Assembly: GCA_026993785.1 (NCBI GenBank)
Contig: JALWRZ010000009.1
Coordinates: forward strand, 1-55,346
From: DHVE2 group archaeon
GTDB lineage: Archaea > Thermoplasmatota > Thermoplasmata > Thermoplasmatales > Aciduliprofundaceae
Reading direction: 5' to 3'
Length of the DNA stretch: 55,346 nucleotides
A program made the position numbers and the translations under genes. The notes under the pieces are model-generated. The model worked only from the letters and a program-made list of their open reading frames with translations. It had not been told where the DNA came from and did no database searches. Positions within the stretch are counted from its first letter, which is position 1, and each line of letters starts with the position of its first letter. Below are positions 609 to 12,771 of the stretch, one piece after another.

Positions 609-3275
609 TTAATCCCAGAACTGCCTGTTTCTGGCGTATTTAAGCTCTTCTTTGAGCACCCTCCTAACAAGCTCATCCTCATCTTTGTATGGTATTTCAA
701 GTATCCTGGCAGCGGTGGTTAAGCCTATCCCACGACCTGCAAGCACCAGAGCCGCTGCTTTCCTATGTCTTCTGAGAAGATGAGATATACCCATTATTCT
801 ATCCAGCTCTCTTCTCTCCTCAGGAGTGAATTTCTTCTTCTTAACTAGTTTTATGAGTTCTTCTTCGTAGGGCTTTAAAAGGGCAACCCTCACACTCCCG
901 CAAAATGGACATACTGGCTTTTCAAAATCCTTCACCTTTATCCTCATATGTCCACCACAGCTGAGACACACGAGAAGCATATCCTCCTCCAACAATCGGC
1001 GATGAATTGCGTCTATCACAGGCTTGGTGGCCAGAATAGGAGAGGAGAGATCCCCATGCTCTTCCAAAAGAACCCGGGAGGCATCGCTCATCTCCCGAAT
1101 TACTATTTTTCTCTTCCCCTTCCTTATCTCCTCAAGAATTTTGGTGGCTACCGGGATATCCATATAGTCGAAAAGCAGCTTGTTCACCGCCTCTTCATAT
1201 AGCACTGTATTTCTGTATGCATCCACTATTTTCTCAACTCTCAGCTTTTTGAGATCGGCATCTTTTCTTATAACACCCATCTTCTTTGCCACATGCAGAA
1301 AAATGTAGCTAAATAGCCTGGAGTTGCGTGCCACAATTTTTATAAGTCCTTCAAGATTCGTAATTCTCTCAAGAAGCTCCTTCACATAATTAACATTGAT
1401 ATGGGGATTGAAGAACGCTATGTGGTATGGGGATATGGAAAATTCAACGCTCTCTCCTATTCTTTGAGATAAGATAGAGGATAGAATCAATGCAAGTGTG
1501 TAGTTAGCTCGAGTACCGCCACGTATTCCAAGAAAAACTATGTCGCGGCTTTTCTCTATCACTATTTTATCTTCGCCCCAGTCCATGTTCCAGCTTTTAA
1601 CCGTAGCTTTGGCAGCTTCATTGAGAAATTTGAAATCCGGAGCGGTGGATGCAACCTCATAGGGAACAGGAATCTCTTCCCCTATCCAGGAGGGAGGGAG
1701 TGCTATATCCCTTATGTACTCTACAAGCACCTTATCTTCCTTTATATCAACAATTCTCCACGCAGAGCCCTTTATGACAAAACTCTCCCCAAGATTAAGT
1801 GTGGATACAAAGCTCTCATCAAGAATACCTATGAAATCACCCTGAAGAGTCACAACCTTGTAGCTTTTCTCGTCGGGAATCATGGAGATATTGCTGTAAA
1901 AGTATCGCAGCCCGCCTCGAGTTTTACCAAAAAAAGCACCATCGAACCATATTTTCCCTATATCTCTCAGGAAATATAGGAGCTCCTGAAACTTCTCGTA
2001 GCTGAGATTTCTAAAGGGATAAGCGCTCCTCACTATCTCATAGGCTTCTCGGGCATCGCTTACCTCTCCAGAATTGGCCATGGCCACAATCTGATTGGCC
2101 AGAACGATCATGGGGTTCTCCCTCATTCGCACATGCTCTACGATACCTCTATGGAGAAGAGTAAGTATAGATGCAGCTTCCCATAGCTCTACGGGAGTAT
2201 GCGCGAATATTATCCCCTTGGAAACCTCATCTATCCTGTGCCCTGCCCTGCCTACTCGCTGAAGGAGCTTGGTTACCTGCCTGGGGGAATTGTACTGTAT
2301 AACGAGATCCACAAGACCCACATCTATGCCAAGCTCTAATGAAGAGGTGCATATCAATGCTTTTAATTTCCCCTCTTTAAATTCATTTTCCGCACGAATT
2401 CTCACATCACGACTTAAAGAGCCATGGTGCACTTCAATAGGTGGCGTGGAAAAAAGGAGATTATAGCGCATTCCTATATCCTCTGCCGTGCATCTTGTGT
2501 TAGTAAAAACTAAAGTGGCGCGATGTTTCATTATCTCATTCCACATCTCCATAAGTGTTGAAGCGTATTCCACATCGCTTCCCATAATCTCCGCTTCCCT
2601 TTCAAATCTCCTCTCCGGTGCGCGAATATCGATATGCACCTTCTTGAAAAGTTTGAGTTCAACAATTTCCACGGCTCCTTTGGGTGATAGAAACTTCGCC
2701 ACCTCCTCGGGATTGCCCACGGTCGCCGACAACCCAACAATCTGGTATGTTGTGAATCTCCTTAACCTCTCTAGTGCCACTGATAGCTGTGCGCCTCTCT
2801 CATCTCCGGCAAGCTCGTGAACCTCATCTATCACCACGAACTTAACATTCTTGAGGCTCTCTCTCAATCTTTTGCCCAGGAACATTATCTGAAATGTTTC
2901 TGGCGTAGTTATGAGCACATGGGGCGGGTGCAGGGATAGCCTTCTTCTCTCATTCTGCGGGGTATCTCCATGTCTCACCGCAACCTCTATACCCAACTTC
3001 TTTCCGAAATCCTTGAGCCTTTTGAGCAGATCCCTGTTAAGGGCACGGAGAGGTGTGATGTAGATGCACGCTATTCTCCCATGCTTCTCTCTCATTATCC
3101 TGTGAAATATGGGGAGCATCGCCGCTTCTGTTTTACCGCTTCCCGTGGGGGAAACAAGAAGCACATTCTTCCCTTCTAAAATGAGTGGAATTACCTTTTT
3201 CTGGGGCTCGGTGGGCTCGAATATGCCCTTCTCATCCAGAACCTTGAGAATCGCAGGGTCTAAGGCCTCAAACAC
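609..3275 (-). CDS. Lhr-type superfamily 2 ATP-dependent helicase
   Basis: This is an 888-residue SF2 helicase of the archaeal Lhr family, which acts in DNA repair or RNA remodelling. Walker A is SPTGSGKT (about residues 42-49), motif II is DEVH (150-153), motif III is SAT (near 183), and motif VI is QRVGRAGHR. The Lhr-type linker ELAGDERGAQL follows motif II. A four-Cys zinc knuckle lies at C770, C773, C789 and C792, and the last 95 residues are helical and basic. The start is a GTG preceded by GAG, because the frame is closed by a TGA a few codons upstream; a TATA-like box lies about 24 bases before it, so the transcript may be nearly leaderless. The family is certain; the exact subgroup (Lhr-core or Lhr2) is less so. 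Confidence 0.93.
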   Translation of the reverse strand: MFEALDPAILKVLDEKGIFEPTEPQKKVIPLILEGKNVLLVSPTGSGKTEAAMLPIFHRIMREKHGRIACIYITPLRALNRDLLKRLKDFGKKLGIEVAVRHGDTPQNERRRLSLHPPHVLITTPETFQIMFLGKRLRESLKNVKFVVIDEVHELAGDERGAQLSVALERLRRFTTYQIVGLSATVGNPEEVAKFLSPKGAVEIVELKLFKKVHIDIRAPERRFEREAEIMGSDVEYASTLMEMWNEIMKHRATLVFTNTRCTAEDIGMRYNLLFSTPPIEVHHGSLSRDVRIRAENEFKEGKLKALICTSSLELGIDVGLVDLVIQYNSPRQVTKLLQRVGRAGHRIDEVSKGIIFAHTPVELWEAASILTLLHRGIVEHVRMRENPMIVLANQIVAMANSGEVSDAREAYEIVRSAYPFRNLSYEKFQELLYFLRDIGKIWFDGAFFGKTRGGLRYFYSNISMIPDEKSYKVVTLQGDFIGILDESFVSTLNLGESFVIKGSAWRIVDIKEDKVLVEYIRDIALPPSWIGEEIPVPYEVASTAPDFKFLNEAAKATVKSWNMDWGEDKIVIEKSRDIVFLGIRGGTRANYTLALILSSILSQRIGESVEFSISPYHIAFFNPHINVNYVKELLERITNLEGLIKIVARNSRLFSYIFLHVAKKMGVIRKDADLKKLRVEKIVDAYRNTVLYEEAVNKLLFDYMDIPVATKILEEIRKGKRKIVIREMSDASRVLLEEHGDLSSPILATKPVIDAIHRRLLEEDMLLVCLSCGGHMRIKVKDFEKPVCPFCGSVRVALLKPYEEELIKLVKKKKFTPEERRELDRIMGISHLLRRHRKAAALVLAGRGIGLTTAARILEIPYKDEDELVRRVLKEELKYARNRQFWD

Positions 3276-4954: not shown

Positions 4955-5680
4955 GTGGCTGTTCTCTACAATGAAAAACTGGATGAGCTCGAGAAAATGT
5001 GCTTAAAAGATCCAGCTAAGCATCCATTTACCCTGTGGGATTTAAGAAAAGAGAGGAAAAACACAGATTTCTATATCCTATTGGAGAGAAGTAAAATTGA
5101 GGGGTATATGCTAATCTACCGCGGCGCCATGATACCCAGCGTGATTCTTCACGGAAGCAGAGATGCTATTTCCGAACTCTTGGATTATTTTCATGAGGAC
5201 AAGGCCATAATTCACATGCCCTATGTGTATCACGACCTTTGGAAAGGGAGAAACAGCATCTACAAGATATATGTGATGACCGCTAACCCCCGCTTCTATT
5301 TTCTGGATCCAGAGGTGAAGGAAATAAAGGACGCTGCTCTCCTTTCCAGGCTTTTTCAGAACCCAGAGTATCTGGTCAAGAAGGCAAAAACATATGGAAT
5401 AATAAGGGATGGTTTTGTTGTCAGCTCCGCTTCCGCGTTAGTGTTTCTCCCAGAAATATGGGTTCTCGGAGCGGTGATAACAAAGAAGGAATACCGCAAT
5501 CGGGGTCTTGCAACCCGTGTCGTTGGACATTTTATGAGCCTGGCTTCCAAGCATACCCAAAAGGTAGTTCTCTGGGTAAGAAGTGATAATGAGATTGCCA
5601 TAAATCTATACAAAAAATACGGCTTTGAGAAAATAGGGGAGGACGCCTGGATAAATGTGGGTGTGAATGTGCTGCCTTAG
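4955..5680 (+). CDS. GNAT-family N-acetyltransferase
   Basis: The C-terminal half of this 241-residue protein is a GNAT domain. Landmarks are the acetyl-CoA pyrophosphate loop EYRNRGLATRVV (about residues 177-188), the strand KVVLWVRSDN and the motif AINLYKKYGFEKIGE. The N-terminal half (about 1-120) has no motif that I recognise and may bind the acceptor. The reading frame allows only a GTG start here, and a TATA-like box (4926-4935) lies about 25 bases upstream, which supports it. It stands alone, with the AT-rich leader region of the peptide cluster behind it. The substrate is unknown. Confidence 0.85.
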   Translation: MAVLYNEKLDELEKMCLKDPAKHPFTLWDLRKERKNTDFYILLERSKIEGYMLIYRGAMIPSVILHGSRDAISELLDYFHEDKAIIHMPYVYHDLWKGRNSIYKIYVMTANPRFYFLDPEVKEIKDAALLSRLFQNPEYLVKKAKTYGIIRDGFVVSSASALVFLPEIWVLGAVITKKEYRNRGLATRVVGHFMSLASKHTQKVVLWVRSDNEIAINLYKKYGFEKIGEDAWINVGVNVLP

Positions 5681-5738
5681 TAATAATTTATACCTATGAG
5701 AATATTGATGGTGAAGTGGAAATATACTCATTTTGGGG

Positions 5739-5754
5739 TGGATAATATTATCCA
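5739..5754. promoter_or_regulatory. 16-bp perfect palindrome, candidate operator upstream of the peptide cluster
   Basis: TGGATAATATTATCCA is a perfect inverted repeat without a spacer. It lies in the AT-rich gap between the acetyltransferase and the precursor peptide gene, about 140 bases before the peptide start and about 80-100 bases before the likely TATA box. Perfect palindromes of this size are typical dimeric regulator sites. No regulator gene is visible in the cluster itself, so the assignment is tentative. Confidence 0.4.
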
Positions 5755-5834
5755 AATTCACACAAAATTCAAAAATATTTAACCGAATAGGGAGTAAATA
5801 TATTAAAAATTTTTAAATTCTAAATAAGTAAAAA

Positions 5835-5846
5835 ATATTATATACA
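5835..5846 (+). promoter_or_regulatory. Likely TATA box of the peptide cluster
   Basis: ATATTATATACA is the best TATA-like element before the precursor peptide gene. Transcription would start near 5870 and give a short leader carrying the GGTGAGG ribosome binding site at 5882-5888. The surrounding 100 bases are very AT-rich with other possible TATA elements, so the exact box is not certain. Confidence 0.45.
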
Positions 5847-5892
5847 AAAAAGTTATATCTCATCATTGCCCATCTGTGGGTGGTGAGGGAAA

Positions 5893-5991
5893 ATGGCATA
5901 TGAAGCACCAAGCCTGAAAAAAGCATCGGGAGGACCGGCACCTGCATCGCCTACTGGCGTAGCTGTATGCTGCATTTGTAACGCGGAATGA
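5893..5991 (+). CDS. Candidate RiPP precursor peptide, Cys-rich C-terminus
   Basis: This short gene encodes 32 residues. The N-terminal part MAYEAPSLKKASGG holds a YxxPxL motif (Y3, P6, L8), the kind of leader motif bound by PqqD-like recognition domains in other peptide systems, and ends in a double glycine. The remaining part is rich in Pro, Ala, Ser and Gly and ends in VCCICNAE, with Cys26, Cys27 and Cys29. A strong ribosome binding site (GGTGAGG, 5882-5888) lies five bases before the ATG. The next genes encode a radical SAM/SPASM enzyme and a PqqD-like protein, which is the classic arrangement for a ribosomally made, enzymatically modified peptide. I infer that the Cys residues are sites of thioether formation. 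No protease gene is seen in the cluster. The open frame and motif are directly visible; the function is inferred. Confidence 0.78.
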   Translation: MAYEAPSLKKASGGPAPASPTGVAVCCICNAE

Positions 5992-6111
5992 TTATCTCGG
6001 GGGATTCCCTCTTGAATAGCAAGAAATACAAAGCAGGACAGGGAGTTACCAAGAGCACTGATGCCGGTATAATCCATCTTTCTCCCTATTTTTTGAATAG
6101 CAGGTGGTAGT

Positions 6112-7288
6112 ATGCGGGGAATAGAAGTAGACTGGCATCTCACCTATCGATGTAATCTAAACTGTGTTCACTGCAGCGTAGTAAATTACCGCGATCCCGA
6201 ATATCTCAAAGGGGAATACTTTCCTTCAGGGATGCGCAGAGAGTTGGGTTACAAGGAACTACATAAATTCGTGGAAATACTCTCCAACTCTACGGATTAC
6301 AATATAACTCTCCACTTCTCACCCAATGTGGGGGAATCCACGCTCCATAAAGATTTTGTGAAGGTATGGAACGAGGTGGCAGAGCTTAAAAATGTTGAAC
6401 TTTCTCTGACATCCAATGGAGTGCTTCTCCAAAAACATCTGAATGAGATGAATCTGGAGCCTTTAAAAAATATGATTATAAGCGTGGATGGTGGCAACGA
6501 AGAAGCTCACGCTGCCATGAGGGGCCAAAATACCTTTGGGAGAACCCTGGAAACACTGCGGGAGCTTGATTCTCGAAAATCAGGAGACAGGGATTTTTAT
6601 CTTCAGATAAACACTGTGATCACACGCCTGAATATTGATTCTCTTTCCCAGCTACCAGTAATACTGGAAAATTTTGAGACATCAAACATAATTCTAAACC
6701 TTTTAAAGCTCTATACCGATGGCGGAAACGCGAGGAAAAATAAAGATAGGCTAGGGGTTTCCTGGCAGGAAATAAGAAATCAGGTAGGAGATATAATTTC
6801 CACCCTTAATCGAGTGAATGAAAGGAGAGAGAGAAGTAATAAGACTCCGATTAAATTAAGACTGGAACTATTTACTTTAAAAGAACAACTCCTATTGCTA
6901 AAACCATATTCCCATAAGCTCCACTATTCCGACATCCTTTTTGAGCTCTCTCCTGGATGGGGAAAGAGCTGCGGCGCCTATAATCTTAAGAGAATTTTTG
7001 TAGATCCCTATGGCTATCTTTTTCCCCTGCTTCAATTTTGCTGATCCCGCAATGCGCCGGGAATTTTTAAAATATGCAGGTCGCATAACACCTCCCAATT
7101 TTGTGGATGAAAAATATGAAGATTTGGGAGCTATTCTATCGCATGCCTTTTTCCAAGAAGCACGAGGGTGGCTCGGGGAGATATATGGAAAGCTTTACTG
7201 CAATTCCTGTCCTCTAAAATCATCTTGCACGGTATGTCCCGCGTATGCCTATTTCTGGGGTGTTCCAAATGTGTGCAAAGAGAGTTAG
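6112..7288 (+). CDS. Radical SAM/SPASM peptide maturase, frame broken by an apparent +1 shift
   Basis: The N-terminal radical SAM motif is CNLNCVHC (C14, C18, C21), which binds the 4Fe-4S cluster that cleaves S-adenosylmethionine. The frame that begins at the ATG (6112, preceded by GGTGG) meets a stop at 7044, just after VDPYGYLFP. The next frame continues the same family exactly where the SPASM cysteine is expected: CFNFADP, then YCNSCPLKSSCTVCPAY, ending at 7288. The switch occurs in TTTTTCCCC (7019-7027), where one surplus base breaks the frame. If corrected, the protein has about 391 residues with a complete SPASM domain for auxiliary clusters. The cause may be a sequencing error in a homopolymer, a real mutation, or slippage at the Pro codon CCC followed by C. 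The role is modification of the peptide encoded just upstream. Confidence 0.88.
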
Positions 7289-7559
7289 GATAAGGGAATA
7301 TTTCATGCTCACGCAGGATCGGTATCTTGTTGATTTCACCCGGGGTGAAGTGTACGAGCTTAATACCATAGGCTATGAGATTTTAAAATTCATATCTCAA
7401 GGAAAAGAGCTTGAAGAAATAGTCGAGCAAATAGTAGAAAGCTACAAAGTACCTCGGGAAACTGTCGAAAAGGATGTCCAGAAATTTTTAGAAATGCTGG
7501 AGAAGGAGGATATCGTGGAGGTAATCACCGATGCCTCAGAAGATATTTCTGGGAATTGA
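7269..7559 (+). CDS. PqqD-like peptide recognition protein
   Basis: About 96 residues, with the PqqD/RRE fold pattern: LTQDRYLVDFTRGEVYELN (beta strands), then GYEILKFISQGKELEEIVEQ (helices), then a helical stretch up to DIVEV. PqqD-like domains bind the leader of a precursor peptide and hand it to the radical SAM enzyme. The frame is open from 7245, but the ATG at 7269 is preferred because GGGGTG lies six bases before it. It overlaps the maturase end by 20 bases and the next gene by 29, so the genes are translationally coupled. The protein is a free-standing version, as in pyrroloquinoline quinone clusters, and fits the YxxPxL leader of the peptide at 5893. Confidence 0.8.
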   Translation: MCAKRVRIREYFMLTQDRYLVDFTRGEVYELNTIGYEILKFISQGKELEEIVEQIVESYKVPRETVEKDVQKFLEMLEKEDIVEVITDASEDISGN

Positions 7560-8595
7560 TATAGGCTCAGCGCACTTGAAAGTCGTAGCTCTCTGCCCTA
7601 ATCCCAGCGAGGAGATATATCCCGTGGGCATAATAGCGTCCAAGCTTCAGAAAGCCTCAAGATTAAGGGACATAATTTTTCCCCTTGTTAGGAAAATAAT
7701 ATCTGAAAAAAGCAAAGATGTGGAGGTTTATGCTAATATAGTAACATCCATTGACGTTGCATACCCAGAGGAGGATTATCTCTCTATTCTAAAAAAGCTC
7801 ACGCAGGAATGCAATGCGAAAATATACTTGCTTTCAGATAACCTCGTGCCAGTGCAACTTGAGAAAACAGAGAACTGGTTTTTCCTATCCTCCATTAATT
7901 CTCTCAGATATATAGCCCAAAAATATTTAGAGAACGGTGTTCTGGTTCACATGAATTCCTCTTCAACCCTCTTTATACCTGTGAAAAAAGGTATTGCTGT
8001 TTCTCTGGAACCGCACTATTCCTCAGGAATAGGCATGTGGACTGGTGCCCTTTATCGCCATGTTTTCAACATTACTGGAAACGGTGTTTATGTATTTGGA
8101 AGAAAAATATATGTTTCTCCTGTTGCTGGTTCCCTCATAGATATCTTATTCCAAATTATGCCTGAAAAGGCAGAAAAGATGCTAGAGCTTTATAATTCAC
8201 CTATGAGAATAGATGAACTTCGTAGAGACTCAGGAAAAAGAATCATGCATATACTAGGAATTTTTCCCCAAAGAGAATACAGGAATTTCAGATACGGGGG
8301 CTTATTTAACAAGGAGAACCAGGTGAGGGTGGCCAGCTATCACATCTATGCCAATTTCCTCCAGGCGTTGGTTGAAAACCTTCTGAAGATTCTATCGGAT
8401 GTGGATATTGACGTGGAAAATATGGAAGTGGCCATAAGCGGCATTGGAGAACCCATTTTAGAAGATGCATTTCATCTTTTCCGAGGAAAAATGATAAAAC
8501 TCAGTGAGAAGTTATCACCCAAGAAATCGGTTATGCTTGAAGCCTACGGCGCTGCATTATCTCTGCAGGAATATGTGGGGGAGAAAGCAAAATGA
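7531..8595 (+). CDS. ASKHA-fold protein related to H4MPT-linked/MfnF hydantoinase-like family
   Basis: This 354-residue protein opens with GIDIGSAHLKVV (residues 8-19), the phosphate-1 loop of the ASKHA (actin/sugar kinase) fold. It continues with VLVHMNSSSTLFIPVKKG (137-154), MWTGALYRHV (169-178), AISGIGEPI (301-309) and a closing EAYGAALSL (337-345). This order matches the family that includes the methanofuran-biosynthesis enzyme MfnF and related H4MPT-linked proteins. In those the second phosphate loop is usually DIGTTTTD-like; here it is HMNSSSTL, so the key aspartates are missing and ATP use may be altered. The start is supported by GGAGGT at 7517-7522. Its location between the PqqD-like protein and the exporter genes suggests a role in peptide modification or immunity. 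That link is an inference. Confidence 0.72.
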   Translation: MPQKIFLGIDIGSAHLKVVALCPNPSEEIYPVGIIASKLQKASRLRDIIFPLVRKIISEKSKDVEVYANIVTSIDVAYPEEDYLSILKKLTQECNAKIYLLSDNLVPVQLEKTENWFFLSSINSLRYIAQKYLENGVLVHMNSSSTLFIPVKKGIAVSLEPHYSSGIGMWTGALYRHVFNITGNGVYVFGRKIYVSPVAGSLIDILFQIMPEKAEKMLELYNSPMRIDELRRDSGKRIMHILGIFPQREYRNFRYGGLFNKENQVRVASYHIYANFLQALVENLLKILSDVDIDVENMEVAISGIGEPILEDAFHLFRGKMIKLSEKLSPKKSVMLEAYGAALSLQEYVGEKAK

Positions 8596-9353
8596 AGATT
8601 CACCAACAGATATGGATCATCACAAAAACAATCTTCAAGGCGTGGATAAGATATCCCGAAAACGCCGTGGGCACGGTTATATACCTTGGTGTTGTGGGAT
8701 TATTTGCCTATGTACTCATGCTAAGCGGATTGCTTTTGGAAAACGCAATCCCTTATTACATTGCTGGATTGACAATCTACGGAATAATAGGACAGACCAA
8801 TGCTGTATACCTAAATTTCAGTCTGTGGAGAGAGGAGCTCCTGGCAAGACCAATTAAACCGGATATCTTTCTCCTGGGAGTTTATATGGGTAGTTTGCTC
8901 ACCAACGCACTCCCCATGCTTATTTTATTTGGAGGTATGCTACCATTCTATTGGAGCACTCTTCATATTTTTCCAACCCTCCTATTTCTTTCCCTTCTGC
9001 TGGGAATACTGAGCTCCATTGGAATCAGCTACTTTTTCGCTTCCCTGGGCTTGAGATTTCGACCAGAAGGTTTTGTGGTAACCACTCTCACGTTCCTCTT
9101 TTCATTCTTCTGCGGCATACTTATCCCTATTTATATCATTCCTAAGCCCTTAGTTTACATTTCATATGCCATACCCTATACATGGGCCATAGAATTATTC
9201 AGACACTCGCTTCTTTCCACCCAAACTCTCCTACCCCAGTCCACAGAGTTAGTGATCCTTCTGGGCTCCACGCTGCTTTACCTGGTCTTCGGAAAGCTCC
9301 TTTTGATGCGCACATTTAAAGTCATAAGGATTAAAAAGGTGATTATAAAATGA
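8592..9353 (+). CDS. ABC-2 type transporter permease of the peptide cluster
   Basis: This 253-residue membrane protein has about six hydrophobic segments, with the layout of an ABC-2 permease: a first helix after WIRYPENAVGTVIYLGVV, a cytoplasmic loop with WREELLARPIKP, and a late re-entrant region FFCGILIPIYIIPKPLVYISYAIPYTW, named here by its ends. It overlaps the ASKHA gene by four bases and its own end overlaps the ATPase gene by four, so all are one operon. With the ATPase at 9350 it should form an exporter of the modified peptide or an immunity pump. Confidence 0.87.
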   Translation: MKIHQQIWIITKTIFKAWIRYPENAVGTVIYLGVVGLFAYVLMLSGLLLENAIPYYIAGLTIYGIIGQTNAVYLNFSLWREELLARPIKPDIFLLGVYMGSLLTNALPMLILFGGMLPFYWSTLHIFPTLLFLSLLLGILSSIGISYFFASLGLRFRPEGFVVTTLTFLFSFFCGILIPIYIIPKPLVYISYAIPYTWAIELFRHSLLSTQTLLPQSTELVILLGSTLLYLVFGKLLLMRTFKVIRIKKVIIK

Positions 9354-10198
9354 TAAAATTCCAGGATGTGTATATCTCCTATGGAGATGCTACGGTAATA
9401 AGAGGACTCACCTTTGAAGTAAAGAGAGGCGAGATATTTGGAATAATAGGCCCTAATGGTGCTGGTAAGACTACCATTCTTCGTGCCCTCACGGGAATAA
9501 TTATACCAGATAGGGGAAAAATAACCATTAATGGCAGGGATGTATCCCTTCTTAAACCCCACGAGAGAAAGATAGCTTTTCTTTTTGAAACTGCCCGTGG
9601 CGGAAGCTTTCTACGCTTAACCCCAGAGGAAGATCTTGAATTCTATGCCGCTCTTTACAATGTGAACGTATCCCGAGAGAAAATTGAGGAGACTCTAAAA
9701 CTCGTTGGTCTCTATCAAGAGAGAAAAAAGAGGCTTTATAAATTCAGTAGAGGCATGTGGCAAAAACTCTATCTTGCCCGAGTAATTTTGCCCGATTTTC
9801 CGGTGATAGTTCTGGATGAGCCTTGGCTTGGTCTCGATGTAATATCTCAGCGAGAAACAGTGGAGATATTAAAAAAATTCAAAGAAATGGGCAAAACCAT
9901 AGTGCTGACTGCCCACGAGATGCCTCTTCTGGAAAGATCCTGCTCACGGGTAATGCTCATAAAAAATGGAAGGAAGGTGATGGTGGGTGAGCCATCTCAA
10001 CTTTTTAAGAGAATTGGCTGGAAATATAAAATAAAGATAAAAGGAGAAAAGAGGGAAAGTATAATATATGTTAAAGACTTGAGAGATGCAATTACAAGGA
10101 TTAAAGAAAACGAAATTTACGAGGCAGAGATAGAGCCAGTATCTCTGGAGGACCTATATCTAAAATTAATGGGTGGGAAAGGTGAGGAACATGATTGA
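9350..10198 (+). CDS. ABC transporter ATPase of the peptide cluster
   Basis: The protein has 282 residues. Walker A is GPNGAGKTT (about 35-43), the signature is FSRGMWQKL (degenerate, about 128-136) and Walker B is VIVLDEPWLGLD (about 149-160), with the H-loop in LTAHE. The family is the ABC-2 exporter type (CcmA-like). It is the partner of the permease just upstream. The C-terminal segment after residue 220 is an extra domain of the kind seen in such exporters. The degenerate signature (SRG instead of SGG) is also seen in related exporters and does not mean loss of function. Confidence 0.93.
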   Translation: MIKFQDVYISYGDATVIRGLTFEVKRGEIFGIIGPNGAGKTTILRALTGIIIPDRGKITINGRDVSLLKPHERKIAFLFETARGGSFLRLTPEEDLEFYAALYNVNVSREKIEETLKLVGLYQERKKRLYKFSRGMWQKLYLARVILPDFPVIVLDEPWLGLDVISQRETVEILKKFKEMGKTIVLTAHEMPLLERSCSRVMLIKNGRKVMVGEPSQLFKRIGWKYKIKIKGEKRESIIYVKDLRDAITRIKENEIYEAEIEPVSLEDLYLKLMGGKGEEHD

Positions 10199-10859
10199 TG
10201 TGGAGAAGGTCACAAAATATTACGAGATAGGAAAGATTCACGCACTTAGGAATCTCACACTGAGATTTGAGGAAGGAAAATTCTATGTGATTGCTGGCTC
10301 CTCTGGGAGCGGAAAAACAACGCTCATAAATCTTATGGCGGGTATTGATTTACCCACAAAGGGATGCGTTAGCGTGGATGGGAAAAATCTTACCAAGATG
10401 AAGGAGAAGGAGCGCCGCAGATTCAGACTTGAAAACATGGGGATAGTTTTCCAGTTCTTCTATCTTGTTCCCTATCTAACGGGGAAGGAGAATGTGATGC
10501 TGCCCATGAGATACTCAAAGAAGGTAAAAAACCCAGAAGAGAGGGCGATGCAGTTATTAAAGCTTGTGAACGGAGAGCATCTGGCAGACAAGAGACCTGT
10601 GCATATGAGTGGAGGAGAGATGCAGAGAGTTGCAATTGCCCGCGCCCTTGCCAATGAGCCTAAATATCTTTTAGCGGACGAGCCCACTGCCAATCTGGAC
10701 TGGAAGAACAAAGAAAGAATATGGGATATCCTTAAAAGAATAAACAAAAGAGGGACTACGGTGATAGTGGCAACCCATGAGCGAGAATTTTTCAAAATGG
10801 GGGATGAGCTGATATACCTCAAGGACGGGATGCTGCATGCTCCTGAAAACGCTGATTAG
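10191..10859 (+). CDS. LolD/MacB-type ABC transporter ATPase
   Basis: 222 residues from the ATG at 10191; a GTG at 10173 is also in frame, but GGTGAGG (10181-10187) lies just before the ATG. Walker A is GSSGSGKTT, the Q-loop is VFQFFYLVPYLT, the signature is MSGGEMQRVAIARAL, Walker B is LLADEPTANLD, and the H-loop is ATHE. This is the family of LolD, MacB and FtsE ATPases that work with FtsX-like permeases, which is exactly the gene that follows. It overlaps the previous gene by eight bases. These systems move peptides or lipid-linked molecules mechanically, and often give resistance to antimicrobial peptides. Confidence 0.92.
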   Translation: MIDVEKVTKYYEIGKIHALRNLTLRFEEGKFYVIAGSSGSGKTTLINLMAGIDLPTKGCVSVDGKNLTKMKEKERRRFRLENMGIVFQFFYLVPYLTGKENVMLPMRYSKKVKNPEERAMQLLKLVNGEHLADKRPVHMSGGEMQRVAIARALANEPKYLLADEPTANLDWKNKERIWDILKRINKRGTTVIVATHEREFFKMGDELIYLKDGMLHAPENAD

Positions 10860-12771
10860 AAAATTGAAGTCGGAGAAAAAGGTGTTTGTCGTCCTCATAA
10901 TATTTATACTCATAGGCACCGGGTTTAATTTCTCCATAAGCGTGATAGGAAGCATGTTGAAGAATTTCAACTCTTTTCTCTCCCAGGGAGATACGGTTGT
11001 GGTGGCAAGGAACGCAACTCTTGAAAACATATCTCGCTATGGAGAAGTGGTGGATTACCAGTACTATGATCCCGCGATTATGAAGTACGGAGGAAAGGAG
11101 ATAAGGGTCTTCAACGGATACGGGGAGTTCAAGACCCTTGGAATAAAATCTCCCGGAAGAGGTAAAGCCATAGTTCTTGGAATGGATATTCCTATCGGCG
11201 CCCTTATAACTATAAACGGAAAAAATTACACTGTTGCTGCCTCTTATTTTTATATCACCTCGTCTCCCATGGTTCTCACTCAGCATAGGGGAAAAACGCT
11301 CTTCGTTTTTATGAAATGCAAAGATTCCACTGCCCTTTCCCAATATTTAAGGGAAAATGCACAAATCTTACAGTTCAATACCTGGGAAGGCGAGAATGGG
11401 CCGGGATATCAGAATATAAAGCAAGCGGAGAATTTCGTTCTCGCCCTTTTCTCTATAGTGATTCTCTCCACCCTTTTAATAATTCTTCTCCTTGGAATCA
11501 CTCATGTTATCGGAGAGCTTCGTGCCACGGGCATTCTCAAGGCCATAGGTATGCCTGACTCTTTCATCACCTCGCTTTTCATGGGCAACTATCTTCTCCT
11601 ATCCCTCATTGGCTATCTGGCCGGGATTTTATTTGGAATATTTTTAGGCATGCAACTCAGCGAGAATCTGGTCTCTCTACCCTTTAAGCTGAACGCTTCA
11701 TTTCTTATGCTATACAACTCCTTCATTTTCCTCGCTATTGTGATTTTCGCTCTTCTACCCCATCTCTATGTTAGGCGGGTGGATATAATCACTGCCTTGC
11801 GGGGTGGCTTCTCCCGCATCTCTTCCCTTAAATATTTTATTCTCTTTTTCATAATATTCTTCGCAATTTTGGCCCCCTTCACCGTGGCACAGGAATTCTC
11901 AACGCAGAAGATTGAAGTACCCTTTGATCTCTATGTTTATGGAGATGTGGGAAATTTGAGCATTGGGGAAAAGGCGGGATATCTTTATGGCGTGAAGTTC
12001 AAAAACACCTATACAGACATATATTTTATGGACTACAACAGCAGCTTCGCATCCACGGTGATGAAAGGTAAATGGTTCTCCAGAAGCGGTGAGGCAGTCA
12101 TAGGTTATGGATTGGCAGAGAGATATAATCTGCATGTGGGAGATAAAATAAGGATTCGCATGCTAGGAAAATGGGATAACTACACCCTCGTGGGCATATC
12201 TAATTCCCCATTGAATAATTATGAAGCAGTTTATCTTCCCAAGGTCAAATATATCCCCGATTCTGTCGCATTTATTAAAACCTCTGAACCTGGGAAACTC
12301 GAAAAACAACTGGAATCTGAGGGTTTCGTGGTTGAAACTGAGGAGGATATAGCAAGAGAATTTCGCAATGAAGTTTCTATGCTTAACACCCTTCTTTCCA
12401 GTCTATTTATCTCACTTCTCATAGTTTCAGTGCTCTCCCTATTCACAATGCTGTATCTGGACATAAAGAAGAATGAGAAGGTATATGCGACCTTGAAGGC
12501 TATGGGCATTCCCAACTCCCATGTTTACAGGGAATTTTTCCCCTTGATCGCTCTCTCTTCCATTACAGGTCTTCTCCTCTCCACGCCTCTGGCAATCTTA
12601 ACTGGCACAAAAATCTTCGGGATGATTTTACCATCTCACTGGAGTAGCTCTGTCATACTATACGTCATACTGTTTGGTATGGGCATACTTGGCATGTTTC
12701 TTATTTTCGCAGCAATTTTACTTGGAAGAATAATGAATAAAATGGATGTCATATCATCGCTCAGAACGTGA
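10837..12771 (+). CDS. FtsX-like (MacB-type) permease of the peptide cluster
   Basis: This 644-residue membrane protein has a first helix (VFVVLIIFILIGTGFNFSI), an extracytoplasmic domain with GKTLFVFMK, then three helices (FVLALFSIVILSTLLIILLL, NYLLLSLIGYLAGILFGIFL, LMLYNSFIFLAIVIFALL). A second half repeats the pattern: a soluble domain (VVGDKIRIRMLGKWDNY-like part near residues 440-460) and final helices with the FtsX motif ATLKAMGIPNSHVYREF. It overlaps the ATPase by 23 bases and closes the cluster. The duplicated FtsX layout fits a complete transporter with the ATPase before it. The likely job is export of or defence against the peptide. Confidence 0.9.
   Translation: MLLKTLIRKLKSEKKVFVVLIIFILIGTGFNFSISVIGSMLKNFNSFLSQGDTVVVARNATLENISRYGEVVDYQYYDPAIMKYGGKEIRVFNGYGEFKTLGIKSPGRGKAIVLGMDIPIGALITINGKNYTVAASYFYITSSPMVLTQHRGKTLFVFMKCKDSTALSQYLRENAQILQFNTWEGENGPGYQNIKQAENFVLALFSIVILSTLLIILLLGITHVIGELRATGILKAIGMPDSFITSLFMGNYLLLSLIGYLAGILFGIFLGMQLSENLVSLPFKLNASFLMLYNSFIFLAIVIFALLPHLYVRRVDIITALRGGFSRISSLKYFILFFIIFFAILAPFTVAQEFSTQKIEVPFDLYVYGDVGNLSIGEKAGYLYGVKFKNTYTDIYFMDYNSSFASTVMKGKWFSRSGEAVIGYGLAERYNLHVGDKIRIRMLGKWDNYTLVGISNSPLNNYEAVYLPKVKYIPDSVAFIKTSEPGKLEKQLESEGFVVETEEDIAREFRNEVSMLNTLLSSLFISLLIVSVLSLFTMLYLDIKKNEKVYATLKAMGIPNSHVYREFFPLIALSSITGLLLSTPLAILTGTKIFGMILPSHWSSSVILYVILFGMGILGMFLIFAAILLGRIMNKMDVISSLRT

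Follow-up and report, generated by a model that had tools for sequence, protein, structure and literature searches.

The reading frame at 5893-5991 of the window, by which we mean the whole 55,346-nucleotide stretch analysed here (contig C9 of the 1.66 Mb genome, in 14 contigs, of an archaeon related to Aciduliprofundum), very probably encodes the precursor of a RiPP modified by a radical SAM (rSAM) enzyme. That this precursor peptide gene is real and conserved is confirmed by comparison with Thermoplasmata archaeon AUK260 (locus L022, genome G002), a public metagenome-assembled genome of the same genus. The gene is the first of a six-gene cassette spanning 5893-10198, which encodes the precursor, an rSAM/SPASM enzyme, a discrete PqqD-type RRE (RiPP recognition element), an MfnF-like ATPase-fold protein and an ABC-2 exporter pair. 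The features are as follows.

5838..5845, + strand: TATA-box-like TTATATAC, probable archaeal promoter element (same 8-mer in AUK260)
5882..5888, + strand: GGTGAGG, Shine-Dalgarno-like site read from the sequence, four bases before the ATG at 5893
5893..5991, + strand: precursor peptide, 32 aa, with YxxPxL leader motif, GGPAPxSP and CCxC end (ORF translation and AUK260 ortholog)
6089..6094, + strand: T6 tract between the precursor and rSAM genes, speculatively a partial terminator (T tracts at this site are longer in AUK260)
6112..7288, + strand: radical SAM/SPASM enzyme, frame split by one extra T (intact 391-aa ortholog in AUK260)
7269..7559, + strand: discrete PqqD-type RRE, 96 aa (Pfam PqqD, E 8.9e-17; fold match to TbiB1/TfuB1)
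7531..8595, + strand: ATPase-fold protein, weakly MfnF-like, presumed accessory (NF040623, E 5e-9, far below cutoff; PDB 3c0b, E 2.4e-5)
8592..9353, + strand: ABC-2 type permease, probable exporter (PF01061; absent from cassette-less genomes)
9350..10198, + strand: ABC transporter ATPase, DrrA-like, permease partner (PF00005, TIGR01188; absent from cassette-less genomes)

The precursor gene and its ortholog

As the first-pass annotation had proposed, 5893-5991 is a gene of 33 codons, comprising 32 residues and a stop, and its translation is MAYEAPSLKKASGGPAPASPTGVAVCCICNAE. The sole tyrosine of the peptide sits in the leader motif YEAPSL (residues 3-8), leaving the core without tyrosine. The double glycine (residues 13-14) and the three cysteines within the last seven residues (26, 27 and 29) are likewise where they had been described. 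In a scan of both strands of the window for products of 20-80 aa with ATG, GTG or TTG starts, this is the only ORF with three cysteines in its last eight residues, and therefore also the only short ORF in the window that combines YxxPx[LIVM] near its start with terminal cysteines. No relatives of the precursor were found elsewhere in the host genome. A phylum-wide profile search with both known peptides returned only weak partial matches (best E 0.0018), which were dismissed as chance on account of their short partial coverage, without one-by-one inspection.

The ortholog in AUK260 (contig JAGHBQ010000173.1, 3224-3319) encodes MVYEAPSIKKVAGGPAPTSPAGAVICCFCTK and lies between the GNAT and rSAM genes, as in the window. 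The two peptides are 61% identical and share the motifs YxxPx[L/I], GGPAPxSP and CCxC, with M1, Y3, E4, A5, P6, S7, K9, K10, G13, G14, P15, A16, P17, S19, P20, G22, C26, C27 and C29 invariant between them. Of the 27 base changes that separate the two genes, 6, 4 and 17 fall at first, second and third codon positions, respectively, and when 27 substitutions were placed at random, just 0.05% of trials gave a stop-free frame that matched at least as well (P 0.0005). Stop codons or a lack of similarity in relatives had been named beforehand as grounds for rejecting the gene; the precursor is known from two sequences only, and the single same-genus ortholog keeps both frame and motifs.

The expression signals are also shared. 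The TTATATAC element recurs in AUK260 at 3173-3180, 43 bases before the start codon there and 47 in the window; the start-site motif GGTGGTGAG is common to both, and GGGTGGTGAG adjoins the start codon in both precursor genes. A GGTGAGG motif had been placed five bases before the ATG, and the motif itself stands, at a spacing of four. One might speculate that the poly-T tracts found in both genomes between the precursor and rSAM genes could end some transcription and so raise precursor levels. The region 5600-6200 has no Rfam matches.

Cassette limits and component proteins

The precursor gene lies directly upstream of the rSAM/SPASM gene, an order kept in AUK260. In two other genomes of the genus, G001 and G003, the GNAT gene is followed directly by a LolD-FtsX pair and then a 67-aa gene, with all six cassette genes absent; in G007, a genome of the same family, and in G009 and G011 no gene separates GNAT from the 67-aa gene. 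Because the six genes are gained or lost as a unit at the GNAT locus, we delimit the cassette as precursor to ABC ATPase, 5893-10198. It is discrete, small and movable, and is present in 2 of the 4 genomes of the genus examined; AUK260 is 75% and G003 85% complete, and the empty site of G003 is contained in a single contig. The LolD-like ATPase and FtsX-type permease of the window (10173-12771) were rejected as cassette members because they occur without the cassette in G001 and G003. This pair, which was not found at the site in G007, G009 or G011, is a further insertion that varies between genomes at this locus. Nothing was found in the viral contigs and plasmids searched, and a match of 50% identity in G006 (L005) proved to be a spurious short reading frame.

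The first-pass annotation likened YxxPxL to lasso-peptide leaders bound by PqqD-like domains, a comparison supported by both the fold and the leader-contact residues of the RRE. The predicted RRE model is confident (pLDDT 85.9), and its six best PDB fold matches in Foldseek are chains of TbiB1 and TfuB1, lasso B1 proteins solved with leader peptides; E is about 1e-5 against lasso B1 versus 0.013 against PqqD 5sxy. TbiB1 is also the best match by sequence (E 1.7e-9 with a two-sequence RRE profile), and WgkC is the second-best NCBIfam match, at a score far below cutoff. A conserved YxxPxL motif has been reported for lasso leaders (PMC10368454), and lasso RREs bind the more general [Y/W]xxPx[L/V/I/A/F/Y]; in LppB the kinked backbone at the proline is held by N33 and the tyrosine by D70, and N33A nearly abolishes binding (PMC13381572). 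By alignment, the equivalents of N33 and D70 are N32 and D69, kept in the window and in AUK260. The further contact positions, Y29, L31, I34 (L in AUK260), I38 (V), I55, Y59, V61, F73, L77 and I82, are all identical or conservatively replaced between the two. Given the lasso-like fold and the Asn and Asp that hold YxxP, recognition of the leader by the PqqD-like protein is well supported, and strong indirect evidence from model and alignment predicts that the RRE binds YEAPSL. The same contact residues occur in many PQQ RREs and so do not name the RiPP class. No RRE orthologs were found outside the window genome and AUK260, and where PqqD matches do occur in the rest of the order, it is mostly as fusions to different rSAM proteins.

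Two further PqqD-rSAM neighbourhoods were seen elsewhere. G001, which lacks the cassette, carries a different rSAM protein with a fused PqqD-like domain adjoining an ABC transporter (L052, G001:C24), possibly another RiPP system. In a related genome, a 41-aa ORF (L051, G053:C14, 1283-1408) precedes a PqqD-like domain and an rSAM gene, and is a candidate precursor of another system.

The extra T in the rSAM gene lies in the run CTTTTTCCCC (7018-7027), whose AUK260 counterpart is GTTTTCCCC, and splits the window gene into two ORFs. The two halves still resemble the ortholog, at 64% and 57% identity, and their base changes favour third positions, so the frame was either lost recently by mutation or misread in sequencing. 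The second may be the case; if the frameshift is real, the window strain could be non-producing. The enzyme has the CX3CX2C motif as CNLNCxHC, together with all seven cysteines of the SPASM type (C287-X13-G-X4-C306, C363-X2-C-X5-C-X2-C375 and C388). Its NCBIfam matches are spread over MoaA, viperin, mycofactocin and tungsten-enzyme maturases and all fall far below the curated maturase cutoffs, so its chemistry is not readable from homology. A viperin-like reading prompted by a PADLOC match was rejected on the score (58 bits against an NCBIfam viperin cutoff of 180), the full SPASM cysteine set and the RiPP context. No rSAM orthologs were found in 61 relatives or 390 phylum genomes beyond the window genome and AUK260; in the phylum-wide draws the window's own genome was the sole match for the rSAM, RRE and ATPase-fold proteins. 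A scan of 84,980 species genomes with two short conserved rSAM patterns, which would miss divergent homologs, yielded no further orthologs.

The ATPase-fold protein is seen only with the cassette, in the window genome and AUK260, and no further homologs were found in the 61 relatives, the 390 phylum genomes or plasmids. Its AlphaFold model is unusable (pLDDT 35). A literature search gave no report of an rSAM RiPP cluster with an ATPase of the actin-like or hydantoinase-like kind.

Proposed maturation and alternative readings

In the route we propose, the discrete PqqD-type RRE would bind the N-terminal YxxPx[L/I] of the precursor, the step best supported by fold and contact residues, and would present the C-terminal part of the peptide to the rSAM/SPASM enzyme. 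This enzyme would then modify the CCxC region, whose conservation makes a crosslink through a cysteine-derived thioether the likeliest chemistry; we judge the prospects that the enzyme forms such a crosslink in the precursor to be about evenly balanced. The cassette ABC-2 transporter would probably export the product. The MfnF-like ATPase-fold protein may play an accessory part, perhaps by carrying out a second modification that depends on ATP. A bolder version, in which the cassette represents an archaeal RiPP class combining a discrete lasso-type RRE, an rSAM/SPASM enzyme of a new subfamily and a dedicated MfnF-like ATPase-fold enzyme that modifies a CCxC peptide a second time in an ATP-dependent step, seems to us unlikely.

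A host protease encoded away from the cassette may remove the leader, or the leader may stay on. The cluster had been said to hold no protease gene, and indeed none is present among the six cassette genes. Peptidase_C39 (PF03412) has no match in the genome, which thus contains neither a detectable C39 peptidase nor a peptidase-containing transporter, so cleavage after the double glycine can be put forward only as a possibility. The double glycine is conserved, but the GGPAP stretch that holds it might just as well belong to the core or to a linker. Three TldD/E-family genes elsewhere in the genome encode, by analogy, candidate processing proteases.

The peptide could be the cassette substrate and yet undergo an rSAM change other than thioether formation, such as epimerisation, a carbon-carbon link or modification of Pro, Ser, Thr or Val, with the cysteines binding metal or forming disulfides. 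We regard this as possible, if somewhat doubtful: within the core, conservation at Pro, Ala, Ser and Gly equals that of the cysteines, and the rSAM scores commit to no thioether-forming family, but CCxC is kept while surrounding residues change, and the complete SPASM cysteine set is typical, though not exclusive, of peptide thioether formers (PMC8326336). Far less probable is a product like PQQ or mycofactocin, with the peptide serving as raw material for a small redox cofactor or signalling compound instead of being exported. PQQ leaders do share the lasso-like YxxP motif, and PQQ biosynthesis uses a discrete PqqD with an rSAM enzyme (PMC13381572); MfnF, which the ATPase-fold protein resembles, is itself a cofactor-biosynthesis enzyme. 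However, the core is without tyrosine, the cassette is without a peptidase or oxidase, a dedicated ABC-2 exporter pair lies within it, and its presence in only half of the four genus genomes argues against an essential cofactor.

The least probable reading, to which we give very little weight, is that the ORF is not a precursor gene but a chance frame or a small regulatory ORF 5' of the rSAM operon. It is very short, known from two sequences and set in an otherwise untranslated stretch, and on the opposite strand another frame is likewise open in the two species. Against this stand the conservation at the protein level with third-position bias, the shared start-site motif and a leader motif that suits the neighbouring RRE.

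Relation to known RiPP systems

Short precursor gene adjoins modifying enzyme in a pairing conserved in AUK260, and the RRE is predicted to fit the leader motif by its fold, N32/D69 and a conserved hydrophobic pocket; both are expected of a RiPP system. Lasso systems with a discrete B1 RRE (TbiB1, TfuB1, PbaB1) share with the cassette the PqqD-family RRE fold and leader pocket, the YxxPxL leader and an ABC exporter, but the cassette has an rSAM/SPASM enzyme in place of the cyclase and Transglut_core3 protease. We reject membership among lasso peptides because no asparagine-synthetase-like lasso cyclase occurs among the six cassette genes and the B2 transglutaminase-like protease (Transglut_core3, PF13471) has no match in the genome. 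The PQQ system (PqqA, PqqD, PqqE) likewise pairs an rSAM/SPASM enzyme and a discrete PqqD-type chaperone with a short precursor, whereas here the core is Cys-rich, an exporter is present and the RRE model is nearer lasso B1; the cassette contains none of the other Pqq enzymes or later enzymes of the PQQ and mycofactocin pathways, and the lack of a core tyrosine excludes both classes.

Sactipeptide and ranthipeptide systems (AlbA, CteB, PapB, StsB) act with an rSAM/SPASM enzyme and an RRE on a Cys-containing core, and the cassette enzyme does carry SPASM-type auxiliary cluster motifs. It belongs to no curated maturase family, however, its NCBIfam matches all being below cutoff; the RRE is a separate protein, and CCxC lies at the extreme C terminus. 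Either label, sactipeptide or ranthipeptide, would depend on the bond type. WgkB/WgkC and GeoRSP-type rSAM-PqqD systems also join a discrete PqqD-family chaperone to an rSAM maturase; in contrast, the present precursor is without a WGK motif, scores are far below cutoff and the ATPase-fold protein is an extra accessory component.

Taken as a whole, the cassette works like an rSAM RiPP system with a discrete lasso-type RRE. Genome mining has found archaeal RiPPs, rSAM classes among them, to be abundant and identified products scarce, with Thermoplasmatota, among the richest phyla, holding 17.6% of archaeal biosynthetic clusters (PMC12144867). The general kind is therefore already known; the present gene set adds a new variant, marked by an ATPase-fold protein of its own. 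With a precursor that is short and defined, an RRE to match and an ortholog that is intact, the cassette is directly testable by co-expression. The ATPase-fold protein may mark a step not described for RiPPs, and the cassette as a whole points to a natural product made by peptide modification, a type familiar from bacteria but hardly explored in these archaea.
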